Assembly (NCBI GenBank): GCA_014192425.1
Contig: BJHK01000003.1
Span: forward strand, 1-64,000
Length of the DNA stretch: 64,000 nt
From: Planctomycetia bacterium
GTDB taxonomy: Bacteria > Planctomycetota > Planctomycetia > Pirellulales > UBA1268
Reading direction: 5' to 3'
In this document: in pieces, positions 13,049 through 40,530 of the stretch
Layout of the letters: each line of letters starts with the position of its first letter
Numbering within the stretch: the stretch's first letter is position 1
Program-made: the position numbers and the translations under genes
The notes under the pieces: model-generated
Seen by the model: the letters and a program-made list of their open reading frames with translations, nothing else
What the model was told of the DNA's origin: nothing
Databases searched by the model: none

Positions 13049-13330
13049 GGTGTCGGTGTCTGGCAGGGTGCCGCGGCGCACCGACGGGAGGAAGCGGCAA
13101 GCCACGGCGGTCCATTCGGGTTCGCGGAGATTCAACGGTCAAAAAGCCCACAGGGTGCGGAGCTCGTGAGTGTACAGCCGCGACGTTCCCCCTGACGATA
13201 GTCCACGGAGGACCGGGAGTCCGTCCACACCGCTCATTTTTCGACACGGCGGGCGGGCTGCGGCCGGCGAGAGGTTCCGATCACGGCCCCCTGGGGGGCG
13301 GTGCGGATCCGGGAATCTGGCGAAGGAAAA

Positions 13331-14218
13331 ATGCTCGAGGGATCGTCGCAACCGACCGGCGCGGCAGCCGAATCGACGGGGGTGCAACCGCGCCGGGAAC
13401 TGATCCCGGTCCACGGTCTGCCGCCGGCGGCAGACGCTGCCGAGGCATCTCCCCGTGCCGCTGCGGCGACCGCCGCCCGGCATGCGGCCGAGGTCGCGGC
13501 CCTGCGTCGGCAGGTGCTCGAGGCCCGCAAGCAGGCCGCTCTCGGCGAACTTCTGGGCACGACCGCCCACGAGTTCAACAACGCCCTGACGACGATCCTC
13601 AACTACGCCCGGATGGGCCTCCGGCATCGCGATCAGGCGACGCGTGACAAGGCCCTGGAGCGGATTCTCTCGGCGGGCACCCGGGCTGCGCGGATCGCCT
13701 CCAGCGTGCTCTCGATGTCGCGCAGTCGCTCGCCGCGGCTCGAGCCCACCGATCTCGGCCATGTCGTCGAGGACGTGCTCGTGCTCCTCGAGCGGGAGCT
13801 GATGAAGTACCGGGTCCAGGTGGAGCGGGAGTTTGCCCCCGTGCCCCGGGTGATGGCCAATCCGGGCCAGGTGCAGCAGGTGCTGCTCAACCTGCTGGTG
13901 AACGCCCGGCAGGCGATGCCGCAGGGCGGACGGCTGATCCTGCGTCTGGCCCACGATCCGGCCGCCGGCCTCGTCGATCTGACCGTTCGCGACACCGGCT
14001 GCGGCATGACGCCCGAGGTGATGCGGCGGATCTTCGAGCCGCACTTCACCACGAAGTCTGGCCCCGACGAGACCGGCAAGGGGGGCACGGGCCTCGGCCT
14101 CGCCTCGTGCCGCGAGATCGTCGAGGCGCATCGTGGCCGGATCCGCGTGGAGAGTGCGCCGGGCCGGGGCACGGCGATCACGATCCGTCTGCCCGTTCCG
14201 CAGGCCGCTGCCGCCTGA
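13331..14218 (+). CDS. Soluble NtrB-like histidine kinase
   Basis: A 295-residue kinase with no membrane segment or recognisable sensor domain. After a low-complexity N-terminus (Ala/Pro-rich, to about 55) comes a coiled coil (HAAEVAALRRQVLEARKQAALGELL) and the H-box TAHEFNNALTTILNYAR, the HEFNN form seen in NtrB/AtoS-type kinases. The ATPase domain has NLLVNARQAMP, DTGCGM and GGTGLGLASCREIVEAHRG. The start ATG 13331 has a good site (GAAGGA) just upstream. A GTG at 13301 is less likely. No response regulator is adjacent, so it is an orphan; the coiled coil may be its signalling input. Confidence 0.88.
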   Translation: MLEGSSQPTGAAAESTGVQPRRELIPVHGLPPAADAAEASPRAAAATAARHAAEVAALRRQVLEARKQAALGELLGTTAHEFNNALTTILNYARMGLRHRDQATRDKALERILSAGTRAARIASSVLSMSRSRSPRLEPTDLGHVVEDVLVLLERELMKYRVQVEREFAPVPRVMANPGQVQQVLLNLLVNARQAMPQGGRLILRLAHDPAAGLVDLTVRDTGCGMTPEVMRRIFEPHFTTKSGPDETGKGGTGLGLASCREIVEAHRGRIRVESAPGRGTAITIRLPVPQAAAA

Positions 14219-14267
14219 CGCTTTCTGAACGGCACTGCTCGGCGCGGCCCTCACCGGCGGCGCACTC

Positions 14268-14950
14268 GCCCAAGCCGCCGGAGGACGGCAGAAGCCTCGT
14301 CGCTGAGGCAGGATAGCCTCACGCTCCTCGACTTCCGCCGATCCTCCGGCTTCGTCGCCTAGCACTGCGAGCCGGGCTCCGCCCGGCGACCGCAAGCCGG
14401 AGCAGACGCTGTGTCGGCTGCGACAGCGCGAAAACCTGCAAGCCTCACGCTCCTCGACTTCCGCCGATCCTCCGGCTTCGTCGCCTAGCACTGCGAGCCG
14501 GGCTCCGCCCGGCGACCGCAAGCCGGAGCAGACGCTGTGTCGGCTGCGACGGCGCGAAAGTCACGCATAGCCTCACGCTCCTCGACTTCCGCCGATCCTC
14601 CGGCTTCGTCGCCTAGCACTGCGAGCCGGGCTCCGCCCGGCGACCGCAAGCCGGAGCAGACGCTGTGTCGGCTGCGACAGCGCGAAAACCTGCAAGCCTC
14701 ACGCTCCTCGACTTCCGCCGATCCTCCGGCTTCGTCGCCTAGCACTGCGAGCCGGGCTCCGCCCGGCGACCGCAAGCCGGAGCAGACGCTGTGTCGGCTG
14801 CGACGGCGCGAAAGTCACTCATAGCCTCACGCTCCTCGACTTCCGCCGATCCTCCGGCTTCATCGCCTAGCACTGCGAGCCGGGCTCCGCCCGGCGACCG
14901 TAAGCCGTTGCAGACGCCGGGTCGGCTGCGACGGCGCGAAAGCCTGCAAG
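14268..14950. repeat. Tandem repeat array, five units alternating 126 and 128 bp
   Basis: The string GCCTCACGCTCCTCGACTTC starts at 14316, 14442, 14570, 14696 and 14824, giving periods 126, 128, 126, 128. Units alternate in their last 18-20 bases, so the true unit is about 254 bp made of two forms. Each unit contains the near-perfect palindrome GCCGGGCTCCGCCCGGC followed by GACCGCAAGCCG. The lead-in (14268-14345) matches modules at 38498-38577 and 39718 onwards. Because 128 is not a multiple of three the reading frame changes between units, so open frames across it are not coding. It fills most of the 873-bp gap between the kinase gene and the LRR-like gene; nothing else was seen there. Confidence 0.93.
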
Positions 14951-15091
14951 CCGGAGCAGACGCTTACCCAGGCACGCCCGAAGCGCACGACGCGTGCGCT
15001 GGGCATGCCTTTGCATCCGGCTGCGGCCGCGGTGCGAACATGTCGGACGGGAGCCCACCTTCCGTTCACCTCCACCACAACGAGGCGCGCC

Positions 15092-17260
15092 ATGAGCCAC
15101 GACGGATTCACGGTTCCGCTGATCGTAGCGCTCCTTGCGCTGCATGCGGTCGGCCCGTCTTCGGTGCCGGCCGCCGACTTGCCCGCGGATACCAACCGCT
15201 TGGAACGGCTGACACCCCAGCAGGCCCGCACGCTGGCGGCGGAGTTTCCGGGGACCAGAATCGAAATCGACGTCCGTCACGCCGATCGCTCGCTCTTGGG
15301 GGATGCCTTGCCGCCGGCGACAAGCGCAGCAAACGACGGGGCCCGGGCGGCTGTCGTTGCGGGCCTGCCGCTGAACGGACTCACGTCGATCGATGCCGAA
15401 ACGGCGGCGGCTTTGGCGACGTACGCCAGGGGACGGCTGTTGCTCAACGGCCTCACCGAAATGAACTGCGACACGGCCCGGGCCCTCGCCGGATTCAAGG
15501 GCCAGGGGCTGTACCTCGACGGTCTGTCGTCTCTCGATGCCGAATCGGCGCATGCGCTCGCCGCGTACGAGGGTCGAGCGCTTTCCGAGCTGGATGGGGC
15601 TGCGGACATCGTGGGCGGCCACTCCCTCTCCCTTTCCGGACTGACGCGGATCGATGTCGACACGGCCCGGGCCCTCGCGAGATTCGGGCCTCGTTCCTCC
15701 TTGATGCTCGAGGGCCTGACCACTCTCGACACCGACACGGCGGAGGCACTTGCCGCTTCCCGGGCTGCCCAACTGCGGCTCGACGGCCTCGAAACTCTCC
15801 CGGCAGACACGGCCCGGGCGCTGGCGGCGTTTCGGGGCCAGTCGCTGCATCTCACCGGCCTGAAGACGCTCGATGCGACCGCGGCACTGGCGCTGGCGGA
15901 CTACGCGGGTTGTCTTCGGCTCGACGGTCTGACGACGCTCGACGCCGGCACCGCTCGAGCGCTGGTAGCCGCGCGCGGATGGACGGGCAGCCTCCCGAAC
16001 GTGGCCACGCTCGATCTTGCCACCGCAAGGGTGCTACTCAGGTTCGACTCCTCGACGTCCGACGGCCTCGATCTCACAGGGCTGACGACCCTCGACGCCG
16101 AGACCGCCGAGGCGCTCGCCCAGTACCCCAGGGGGCTGGCCCTGAAGACAACGACCACGCTGGATGTCGGCGACAATCGCGGGGTGGGGCGGCTACGGTG
16201 TGATGCGTTGTCGTTTCCCACCCTGACGATGATCGACGCCGCCGAAGCCCAAAAGCTCGCGGCATTCCCGGGCCGACAGCTGGCACTCCCTGGATTGATC
16301 GCGCTCGATCCAGCCGCCGCGGATGTGCTTGTCGGCTTGCAGGCCTGGCGGATTGCTTACCTGCCGCAACTGGCCACGCTCGACGCCGCCACGGCCCGCG
16401 TCCTGGCGCGATTCCCAGGCCCGCAACTCAGCCTCGCCAACCTGACCAGTCTCAAGGCCGACACGGCCGCAGCGCTCGCGGCGTTTCCGGGTGAATCGCT
16501 GCATATCGGCGTCAAGGCACTCGATGCCGACGCCGCGCGGGCGCTCGCCGCCTCCCGGACGCGACATCTGCAACTCTCCGGCCTCTCCGTGATCGACGAC
16601 GAGACCGCCAGAGCGCTCGCCCGTTTCACGGGAACGCGACTCGACCTCCGTTACGTGGCCGGCCTGTCAGCCGACGCCGCGCGGGCGATCACCACGGCCC
16701 CCGCCTGGGATGGCCACCTCCCCGCATTGAAGACGATCGACGACGAGACCGCGGCCGTGCTGGCGGCGGCGACGAAGTGGGACGGAAGATTGTTGCATGT
16801 CTCCGCGTTGACCGTCCGCTCGGCCCGTGCGATCGCCGGGGCCAAAGGAAACACGCTCAACCTGTCCGGCCTGCGCAGGCTCGACCGCGACGTCGCCGAC
16901 GCTCTCGCGGGCTTCGCCGGCACCACACTGGCCGTTCGCGGCCTGACCGCGCTCGACGCGCCGACGGCCGACGCCCTCGTCGCGATTCCTTCATGGGATG
17001 GCCGACTCCCCTGCTTGACGGCCTTTTCGGCTCCGGACTCCGTCGCCGTGGCCAAAGCCCTCGCCACGCGCAAGGGCCAGCTCGCTCTCCCCAACCTCCA
17101 GAAGATCTCCCCCCAGACGCTCACGGCCCTGATCGCCAAGAAGGACGTCGAGATCCCGCTCATCAAGACGCTGGAGCTGATCCCCGAGCCCGACGGCAGC
17201 GCGACCGAGGACTTCGTGATTCCCGAGGACTTCGCCGAGCGGCAGAAGAAGCGCCGGTGA
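15092..17260 (+). CDS. Secreted LRR-like repeat protein
   Basis: A 722-residue protein with a signal peptide (MSHDGFTVPLIVALLALHAVGPSSVPAAD). From about residue 110 to 690 it is built from roughly 22-25 copies of a 23-24 residue repeat of the form L.L.GL..LDA.TA.ALA.F.G. The regular Leu/Gly/Asp pattern and length suit a solenoid of the leucine-rich-repeat kind. The tail (PEPDGSATEDFVIPEDFAERQKKRR) is acidic then basic. It is likely a binding or scaffold protein outside the cytoplasm; the ligand is unknown. The start ATG at 15092 has GAGG seven bases upstream. The frame is open before it, but without a signal sequence. It stands alone, behind the repeat array. Confidence 0.8.
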   Translation: MSHDGFTVPLIVALLALHAVGPSSVPAADLPADTNRLERLTPQQARTLAAEFPGTRIEIDVRHADRSLLGDALPPATSAANDGARAAVVAGLPLNGLTSIDAETAAALATYARGRLLLNGLTEMNCDTARALAGFKGQGLYLDGLSSLDAESAHALAAYEGRALSELDGAADIVGGHSLSLSGLTRIDVDTARALARFGPRSSLMLEGLTTLDTDTAEALAASRAAQLRLDGLETLPADTARALAAFRGQSLHLTGLKTLDATAALALADYAGCLRLDGLTTLDAGTARALVAARGWTGSLPNVATLDLATARVLLRFDSSTSDGLDLTGLTTLDAETAEALAQYPRGLALKTTTTLDVGDNRGVGRLRCDALSFPTLTMIDAAEAQKLAAFPGRQLALPGLIALDPAAADVLVGLQAWRIAYLPQLATLDAATARVLARFPGPQLSLANLTSLKADTAAALAAFPGESLHIGVKALDADAARALAASRTRHLQLSGLSVIDDETARALARFTGTRLDLRYVAGLSADAARAITTAPAWDGHLPALKTIDDETAAVLAAATKWDGRLLHVSALTVRSARAIAGAKGNTLNLSGLRRLDRDVADALAGFAGTTLAVRGLTALDAPTADALVAIPSWDGRLPCLTAFSAPDSVAVAKALATRKGQLALPNLQKISPQTLTALIAKKDVEIPLIKTLELIPEPDGSATEDFVIPEDFAERQKKRR

Positions 17261-38185: not shown

Positions 38186-38223
38186 TTTGCGCGCTGTCGC
38201 AGCCGACACGGCGGCTGCGACAG

Positions 38224-38577
38224 CTTACGGTCGCCGGGCAGAGCCCGGCTCCAGCGTCGGGCTCCGCCCGACGCGGTGTGCGGCGAAACGTGGGCGGTGA
38301 GGTGCAGGCACCGTCGCCGCCGTCCCGGCGTCGGCGACGGCTTACGGTCGCCGGGCAGAGCCCGGCTCCAGCGTCGGGCGCCGCCCGACGCGGTGTGCGG
38401 CGAAACGTGGGCGGTGAGGTGCCGTCACCGTCGGATCAGCCGACACGGCGTCGGCGACAGCTTACGGTCGCTGGGCGCTGGTATGGCTGCAGCCGGAGGA
38501 TCGGCGGAGGTCGAGGAGCGTGAGGCTATCCTGCCTCAGCGACGAAACCTCTGCCGGCCTCCGGCGGGTTGGGCGGG
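38224..38577. repeat. Three-copy repeat (117/120 bp) plus inverted module before bioB
   Basis: CTTACGGTCGC starts at 38224, 38341 and 38461 (periods 117 and 120). Units contain two adjacent palindromes (GCCGGGCAGAGCCCGGC and GTCGGGCTCCGCCCGAC) and a GGCGAAACGTGGGCGGTGAGGTG string. 38498-38577 is the reverse complement of the module that leads the arrays at 14268 and 39718. The palindrome block is the reverse complement of 40440-40490. The region fills nearly all of the 459-bp gap between the M24 peptidase gene and bioB; nothing else was seen there except the bioB leader. Confidence 0.88.
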
Positions 38578-38644
38578 AACACGCTCTTTGGCAGCCAGGC
38601 AGGCTGTCGCGTACATTCTTCCCAATCCCACCCCGGAGCACCGC

Positions 38645-39706: not shown

Positions 39707-40354
39707 CCGCGTCATCCCGCCCAAGCCGCCGGGGGACGGCAGAGGTTTCGTCGCTGAGACAGGATAGCCTCACGCTCCTCGACCTCCGCCGATCCCCCGA
39801 CTCCGGTCAACTCAACGACGCCATCCCCTGCTCGTCCATGCACCGCCGCGCGTCAGAACGGCGAGCCAACCACCTCTGGTCCGCCCTGCCATGCGTCGGG
39901 CGGAGCCCGACGCCGGAGCCTGACTGCGTCATCCCGCCCAAGCCGCCGGGGGACGGCAGAGGTTTCGTCGCTGAGACAGGATAGCCTCACGCTCCTCGAC
40001 CTCCGCCGATCCCCCGACTCCGGCCAACTCAACGACGCCATCCCCTGCTCGTCCATGCACCGCCGCGCGTCAGAACGGCGAGCCAACCACCCCTGGTCTG
40101 CCCTGCCATGCGTCGGGCGGGGCCCGACGCCGGAGCCTGACTGCGTCATCCCGCCCAAGCCGCCGGGGGACGGCAGAGGTTTCGTCGCTGAGGCAGGATA
40201 GCCTCACGCTCCTCGACCTCCGCCGATCCCCCGACTTCCGTCAACTCAACGACGCCATCCCCTGCTCGTCCATGCACCGCCGCGCGTCAGAACGGCGAGC
40301 CAACCACCTCTGGTCTGCCCTGCCATGCGTCGGGCGGAGCCCGACGCCGGAGCC
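39701..40354. repeat. Three tandem copies of a 217-bp repeat, starting at the bioB stop
   Basis: GCCTGAC(C/T)GCGTCATCCCGCC begins at 39701, 39918 and 40135, exactly 217 bp apart each time. The copies are nearly identical, with only a few base differences. Each unit contains the module seen at 14268 and (inverted) 38498, a spacer with CATCCCCTGCTCGTCCATGC, and ends CGTCGGGCGGAGCCCGACGC, a palindrome. 217 is not a multiple of three, so the array is not coding. The last unit runs into further palindromes. Confidence 0.95.
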
Positions 40355-40530
40355 GGGCTCCGCCCGGCGACCGTAAGCCGACGCCGGGACGGCGATCCGA
40401 CGCGAACGGCCCCTCACCACCCACGCCCGGCGCACGCGGCGTCGGGCGGAGCCCGACGCCGGAGCCGGGCTCCGCCCGGCGACCGTAAGCCGTCGCCGAC
40501 GCCGGGACGGCGGCGACGGCGCGAAAGAAC
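40340..40530. repeat. Two further copies of the GCCGGGCTCCGCCCGGC palindrome module
   Basis: GGAGCCGGGCTCCGCCCGGC followed by GACCGTAAGCCG occurs at about 40350-40381 and again at about 40461-40492. Each is followed by a GACGCCGGGACGGCG string. This is the same module as in the 14.3-kb array and, inverted, in the 38.2-kb array. With the 217-bp array it fills the 896-bp gap between bioB and amt. Confidence 0.85.

Follow-up and report, generated by a model that had tools for sequence, protein, structure and literature searches.

Among the dispersed palindromes described in bacteria, REP, BIME and REPIN elements are intergenic, occur in tens to hundreds of copies, cluster, avoid promoter-type gaps and in some cases abut stop codons; PMC3733652 sets out this intergenic, clustered, promoter-gap-avoiding and stop-abutting pattern for REPs and cites the frequency of G-T pairing in their stems. 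The same paper deals with TIRtrons and TIRYT genes, and PMC6006769 with class 3 TnpA-Y1 of Planctomycetes and its atypical, high-copy flanking secondary structures. For ISY100 and IS630, PMC2170065 describes insertion into, and duplication of, TA. The repeats reported here are like REP, BIME and REPIN elements in copy number, clustering and position, and some of them likewise abut stop codons. They are unlike them in that their main hairpin measures about 75 nt instead of 20-40, in that no association with a RAYT gene accompanies them, and in that G.U pairs are nearly absent and the units in our window lack a GTAG tag at the hairpin foot, CGAG being the sequence that precedes the palindromes there. 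The best reading of the two modules concerned, termed A and BC, is that they are non-coding, REP-like repeats which derive from a MITE and were amplified locally at the ends of genes. A published description of the hairpin A/BC repeat was not found in the open-licence literature searched.

The window, i.e., the whole stretch of 64,000 nucleotides that was analysed, carries its array in a tandem gap. On one side is a sensor histidine kinase gene (HisKA and HATPase_c domains by Pfam, 13301..14218 of the open reading frame list, + strand), whose stop codon is separated from the array region by 49 bp; on the other side the next gene begins. The array comprises five units of 126, 128, 126, 128 and 126 bp (14315-14952), all on the + strand, and Tandem Repeats Finder (TRF; 14313-14952) returned both a period of 126 (5.0 copies, 94% matches) and one of 254 (2.5 copies, 97% matches, score 1217). 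Since GCCTCACGCTCCTCGAC begins exactly at 14316, 14442, 14570, 14696 and 14824, the five starts with alternating periods proposed in the initial annotation are borne out, as is its proposal that whole unit pairs were duplicated: the 254-bp pair at 14313-14566 recurs at 14567-14820 with 100% identity. Two unit types are thus real, as that annotation had it, although they do not differ throughout their last 18-20 bases, but by one substitution and the final 9-11 bases, with unit 1 (14315..14441, 126 bp) ending in AAACCTGCA and unit 2 (14442..14569, 128 bp) in AAGTCACGCAT. By TRF and self-comparison, unit 3 (14570..14695) is a copy of unit 1 and unit 4 (14696..14823) a copy of unit 2; unit 5 (14824..14949, 126 bp), defined by BLAST and the motif starts, has diverged and is 94% identical.

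Each unit begins at the loop of hairpin A and is opened by the 3' arm of that hairpin. The complete imperfect palindrome with its loop AGGATA is present only once in the array (14268..14352, +), its 5' arm (14268-14315) preceding unit 1 only, and the later units repeat the 3' half. Module BC of unit 1 (14369..14437, +) consists of the palindrome GCCGGGC-tcc-GCCCGGC followed by a second dyad, and the palindrome returns at 14497, 14625, 14751 and 14879. After the last unit a residual BC fragment remains (14950..14975, +; AGCCGGAGCAGACGC), whose AGCC corresponds to the beginning of the unit that is repeated. The motif GCCGGGCtccGCCCGGC is common to all units, and its 22-base extension occurs nine times in the window with three mismatches or fewer, against 0.03 expected. 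The initial annotation attributed to each unit a strong GC palindrome that would fold as a hairpin. The palindromes are there, and at 14267-14356 the hairpin has a better fold than any of 200 shuffles (z -3.4), whereas a complete internal unit is not distinct from its shuffles (z -1.6). Coding repeats were rejected, because units of 126 and 128 bp break the frame, and open reading frames across the array were taken as spurious. Beyond the array, the window holds a 751-aa open reading frame (15005-17260) made up of repeats of about 24 aa (LxGLTxIDAxTAxALAxF-like), with no Pfam family above cut-off, and DUF1559 with an N-methylation motif is among its Pfam gene content.

When one unit was searched against its own genome (G000; 3.98 Mb in 70 contigs), as the initial annotation had suggested, at least 144 BLAST matches were obtained with the best 40 of 114 candidates scored. 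The array turned out to be a composite of two dispersed palindromic modules: A, the imperfect hairpin, which measures about 75 nt and whose AGGATA loop is conserved, and BC, in which palindrome B (GCCGGGC-NNN-GCCCGGC) and the dyad C that follows it make up a double palindrome. A 29-nt core of hairpin A occurs 43 times in the genome with three mismatches or fewer (34 exact) and 0 times as a reversed-pattern control, and palindrome B 105 times against 2 in the control. About 30 sites combine A and BC, the window array being one of them. A second site within the window, an array of period 117 with hairpin A, lies upstream of bioB (38189..38580, - strand), and a third, with three 217-bp units that each hold a complete hairpin A, downstream of it (39713..40526, +). 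For closer study, 32 stretches were sampled, 30 of them centred on candidate sites, which together with the window gave 32 motif clusters, including one B-like match inside a gene and one B-only site; stretches L038, L052 and L054 contained no motif cluster. Some arrays lie at contig ends of this draft assembly, so that copy numbers may be collapsed. In a pattern scan of genome contigs the only match was one short record of Planctomycetota bacterium isolate REEB424, in which the B palindrome is present and hairpin A was not found. This record and the DUF1559 gene content point to the phylum of the window's genome. Carriage of the array by plasmids or phages was also considered and rejected, a distant-match search with the array giving no match in either collection.

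Hairpin A is a family-wide, high-copy element. When 396 genomes of the order were searched with a covariance model of it (R1), 50 were matched at E<=0.001, and every one of them belongs to the organism's own family (f1). With the best 150 candidates scored in each genome, it gave 60 matches in G000 and 148, 135, 111, 48, 33, 27, 24, 23 and 11 in nine relatives. In an alignment of 34 of the 46 G000 copies (A1), from which near-identical tandem copies were dropped, RNAalifold found 19 pairs, eight of them with double changes. A second alignment (A2) held 40 matches at E<=0.01 from 47 loci of other genomes, and 93.3% of its cells pair compared with 79.7% after shuffling, a figure that leans towards structure because A2 was fitted to R1, the slid controls being far lower. 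Double changes affect 12 of the 19 pairs in A2 (84 such cells), and its 25 further pair types were reached by 0 of 500 shuffles. The loop and bulges are conserved as well, so the structural conservation that the initial annotation proposed to look for is found both across the copies and in relatives. At L110, L112 and L113 (in G017, G015 and G021), hairpin A apparently occupies one and the same position, upstream of a gene resembling an oxidoreductase, and some insertions would therefore predate these species.

In two sister species hairpin A is carried by a Tc1/mariner/IS630-type MITE. The near-identical copies of G014 and G015 lie within a unit with ends (C)TAGAGCGCGTCTGAG and CGGAGATGCGCTCTA(G), the form in G015 being AGGAGATGCGCTCTA; terminal inverted repeats are present on the copies of both, and the flanks of the elements are unrelated. 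All 11 distinct complete elements of G014 are 160 bp long including a TA at both ends, and all 11 have a TA duplication and no longer one; the preceding base is C in nine and T in two, and the following base G in nine and A in two. In G015 the two ends were seen on separate copies, since contigs break there: those of L237-L242 and L244 end within or just past MITE copies, meaning that the element broke the assembly and that its copy number is underestimated. The inverted ends (TAGAGCGCRTCTSMG), the TA duplications, the CTAG-type targets in G014 and a length without coding room make up the signature of such MITEs, with the differences that the body here is a strongly conserved, covarying hairpin, and that A also exists without ends, in its own and other genomes, and has been amplified in tandem. 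A preference for CTAG targets is reportedly known in the IS630/ISY100 context. The transposon link suspected in the initial annotation is thus present, in the sister species. Paired ends 1-3 kb apart, as for an autonomous partner, were absent from the G014/G015 listing, in which many ends lie at contig edges.

One G014 copy lacks the left end, bare hairpins occur in G014 and G015 themselves (L235, L236, L243), and in G018, G044, G012 and G017 some copies of A have degenerate versions of the ends on their flanks. In the G000 arrays, MITE ends are not above chance (eight matches against 27 in the control), and one degenerate pair of ends only was found in that genome (L267), so that it is by inference that we derive the G000 form from the MITE. 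Near bioB, A was found at 2 of 18 loci of the genus (G004 and G010; complete or partial orthologues), in both cases in the orientation opposite to that in G000, which indicates that the insertion is polymorphic.

The G000 composite sits at gene ends and strongly favours convergent gaps. According to a home-made codon-usage gene caller, the 30 sites with both neighbours called comprise 19 convergent, 11 tandem and 0 divergent gaps, compared with 9, 50 and 35, respectively, among 94 other gaps of at least 80 nt at the same loci (Fisher p 1.2e-8); the B-like match inside a gene is counted among the 30, and without it 19 of 29 are convergent. At 7 of 32 sites exactly 3 nt separate the end of BC (GGCGCGA or alike) from the stop codon, in reverse complement, of the gene that follows. 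The bias is weaker in relatives, whose 41 hairpins were found in 24 tandem, 10 convergent and 4 divergent gaps, with 3 at an edge, and with the same orientation in 19 of the 24 tandem cases.

Arrays with a period of at least 60 were seen at 24 of 32 own sites and at 7 of 42 foreign hairpin loci, a comparison that is biased because the own sites were found with the array unit. Their periods (77-374 in G000) are private to each site, and nested periods occur at several other sites of the genome; the 126/128 pair is therefore not exceptional, and the view in the initial annotation that such higher-order arrays are unusual does not hold. Hairpin-A 3' arms with the standard type of loop number 68: 42 are part of a complete hairpin, and the other 26 are half-hairpins, spread over 13 sites (one of which, L032, has a partial half only). 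All 26 start at the AG of the loop (AG, then CCTCACGC) in a search that required CCTCACGCTC and so would have missed breaks further 3', and orphan 5' halves numbered 0. The half-hairpins come after GCGCGA-type BC ends and a filler; 10 of the 16 distinct fillers measure 9 nt, so some half-copies may share one origin and have dispersed later. At three sites (the window array, L042 and L044) the filler resembles the sequence that flanks the array on its right, and it has AGCC or CAGG in common with the loop. Several arrays have endpoints other than the hairpin-A loop. Given the loop-start of truncated units at 13 sites, array birth seems tied to the hairpin tip, probably as a microhomology-joined duplication with one end at the loop. 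At L047 (3907-4942), four 261-bp tandem units each include the last codons of the upstream gene, which we take to be pepA-like, together with A and BC; the inclusion of this gene end shows that the array arose in place.

A further long hairpin, D (GGGGTTGCCCGTGCCCC...GGGGCACGGGCAACCCC-like), is dispersed at gene ends in G000 and other genomes, for instance at L046 (~3800), L047 (~5860), L101 (~1640), L171, L173, L174 and L180. Its 8 matches in the window, where 2.5 are expected, do not clearly exceed chance, 1 of 100 shuffles having reached that number. In G005, G006 and G017, BC-like modules lie inside D near its tip (L010, L011, L018-L020, L023, L024), so that palindromes are nested in palindromes in family f1.

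Position at gene ends, with a convergent excess and no divergent gap, together with a conserved loop and bulges, is what would be expected if A were a structured RNA (a 3'-UTR stabiliser, terminator or attenuator) selected on the transcripts of flanking genes. The pairing itself speaks against it. With the SRP RNA of the same family as control (29 of 35 matches used, 23 distinct), chosen because tRNAs from the sampled loci were too few, G.U makes up 17.9% of paired cells in SRP RNA but 1.3% in A1 and 0.6% in A2, with 9, 44 and 66 (A2 realigned) doubly changed cells, respectively, and when each sequence is folded alone 16.3% against 1.6% and 3.0% for hairpin A, all of these G.U counts being of sequences and not of events. 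Watson-Crick swaps almost without wobble intermediates are suggestive of pairing maintained at the DNA level. Moreover, convergent gaps hold only 10 of 38 classified hairpins of relatives, A stands in a mobile-element context, and neither a U-run terminator nor an Rfam match at gathering score accompanies it: an intrinsic terminator was rejected, none being found, the whole window gave 0 Rfam matches at gathering score, and the two within the array fell far below it. Selection as RNA is thus unlikely. The same landscape of intergenic, high-copy palindromes in tandem clusters favouring convergent gaps, as PMC3733652 gives it for REPs, would also fit a REP/BIME system spread by a RAYT (Y1 HUH) transposase, and the single Y1_Tnp (IS200-like) gene found in G000 reaches 73.7 bits against the NCBIfam REP_Tyr_transpos model (cut-off 80). 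However, this gene (L009 1138-1944; G000:C4:109798-110604) has its own perfect inverted repeat of 30 bp, AAAAGGTGCCAGCCACCAAATCTGGGTAAT, at its boundaries, which lacks A and BC. With such ends it resembles a TIRtron or TIRYT unit as treated in PMC3733652, but these inverted repeats are unrelated to the array. Y1_Tnp genes, present in 26 of 72 family genomes, do not track hairpin A: G012 and G018, with 148 and 135 A copies, gave no Y1_Tnp match, and Y1 without any hairpin match was seen in several g25 genomes. Hairpin A at E<=0.01 was absent from 31 loci around Y1_Tnp genes, among which no RAYT/TnpA-REP gene flanked by the array repeat was found; in this A also departs from class 3 TnpA-Y1, with which it has in common the occurrence in Planctomycetes and atypical secondary structures in high copy number. 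Together with the TA duplications of complete G014 copies, these results largely refute a REP/RAYT origin of A; the RAYT-like transposase that the initial annotation proposed to look for is rejected as a partner, and the reading as a whole is quite improbable.

Growth of the array as an ordinary minisatellite, by slippage and without any underlying element, would account for the identity of the 254-bp copies and for periods that vary from site to site. It is refuted as a complete explanation by the dispersed modules, which recur in the same order at ~30 sites and in other species with their structure conserved, and is accordingly very improbable in that role, while slippage is a likely cause of growth within a site. 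A more far-reaching proposal, and at present a tentative and rather doubtful one, is that hairpin A forms a self-contained DNA device in which the exposed loop serves as a preferred cut or template-switch point, seeding loop-start arrays at gene ends, the family spreading by transposition as well as by tip-initiated local duplication. Cleavage of the tip by an SbcCD-like nuclease may be involved.

The explanation that we consider reasonably probable is that the array came about when a composite of the dispersed non-coding palindromic repeats A and BC was amplified locally, A having spread as a MITE and the arrays having been seeded at the hairpin loop. A would have spread in family f1 as a non-autonomous transposon, moved in trans by a putative DDE transposase, and in G000 the MITE ends would have decayed, leaving A as a bare hairpin joined to BC. 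Replication or repair would then copy a stretch reaching from the single-stranded loop of hairpin A to just past BC, the copy being joined through a short shared sequence of about 4 bp (AGCC or CAGG). Arrays so formed would lengthen through slippage, or through unequal exchange among units that are nearly identical, and the 254-bp period would represent a second-round duplication of the 126 and 128 pair. Most likely, A and BC have no function beyond being tolerated at gene ends.

MITEs and REP-like repeats are known kinds of element, and a family-specific, DNA-level hairpin with local amplification is a variant of them whose mechanism is in part inferred. Recurrent loop starts at 13 sites of one genome make the birth of bacterial minisatellites testable, and G.U content relative to the SRP RNA of the same genomes offers a simple means of telling DNA-level from RNA-level hairpins. 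Finally, the high-copy, REP-like palindrome family of these bacteria does not go with a RAYT gene and, in the sister species, takes the shape of a MITE inserting at TA; REP-like landscapes can thus arise from a class of transposon other than RAYT.
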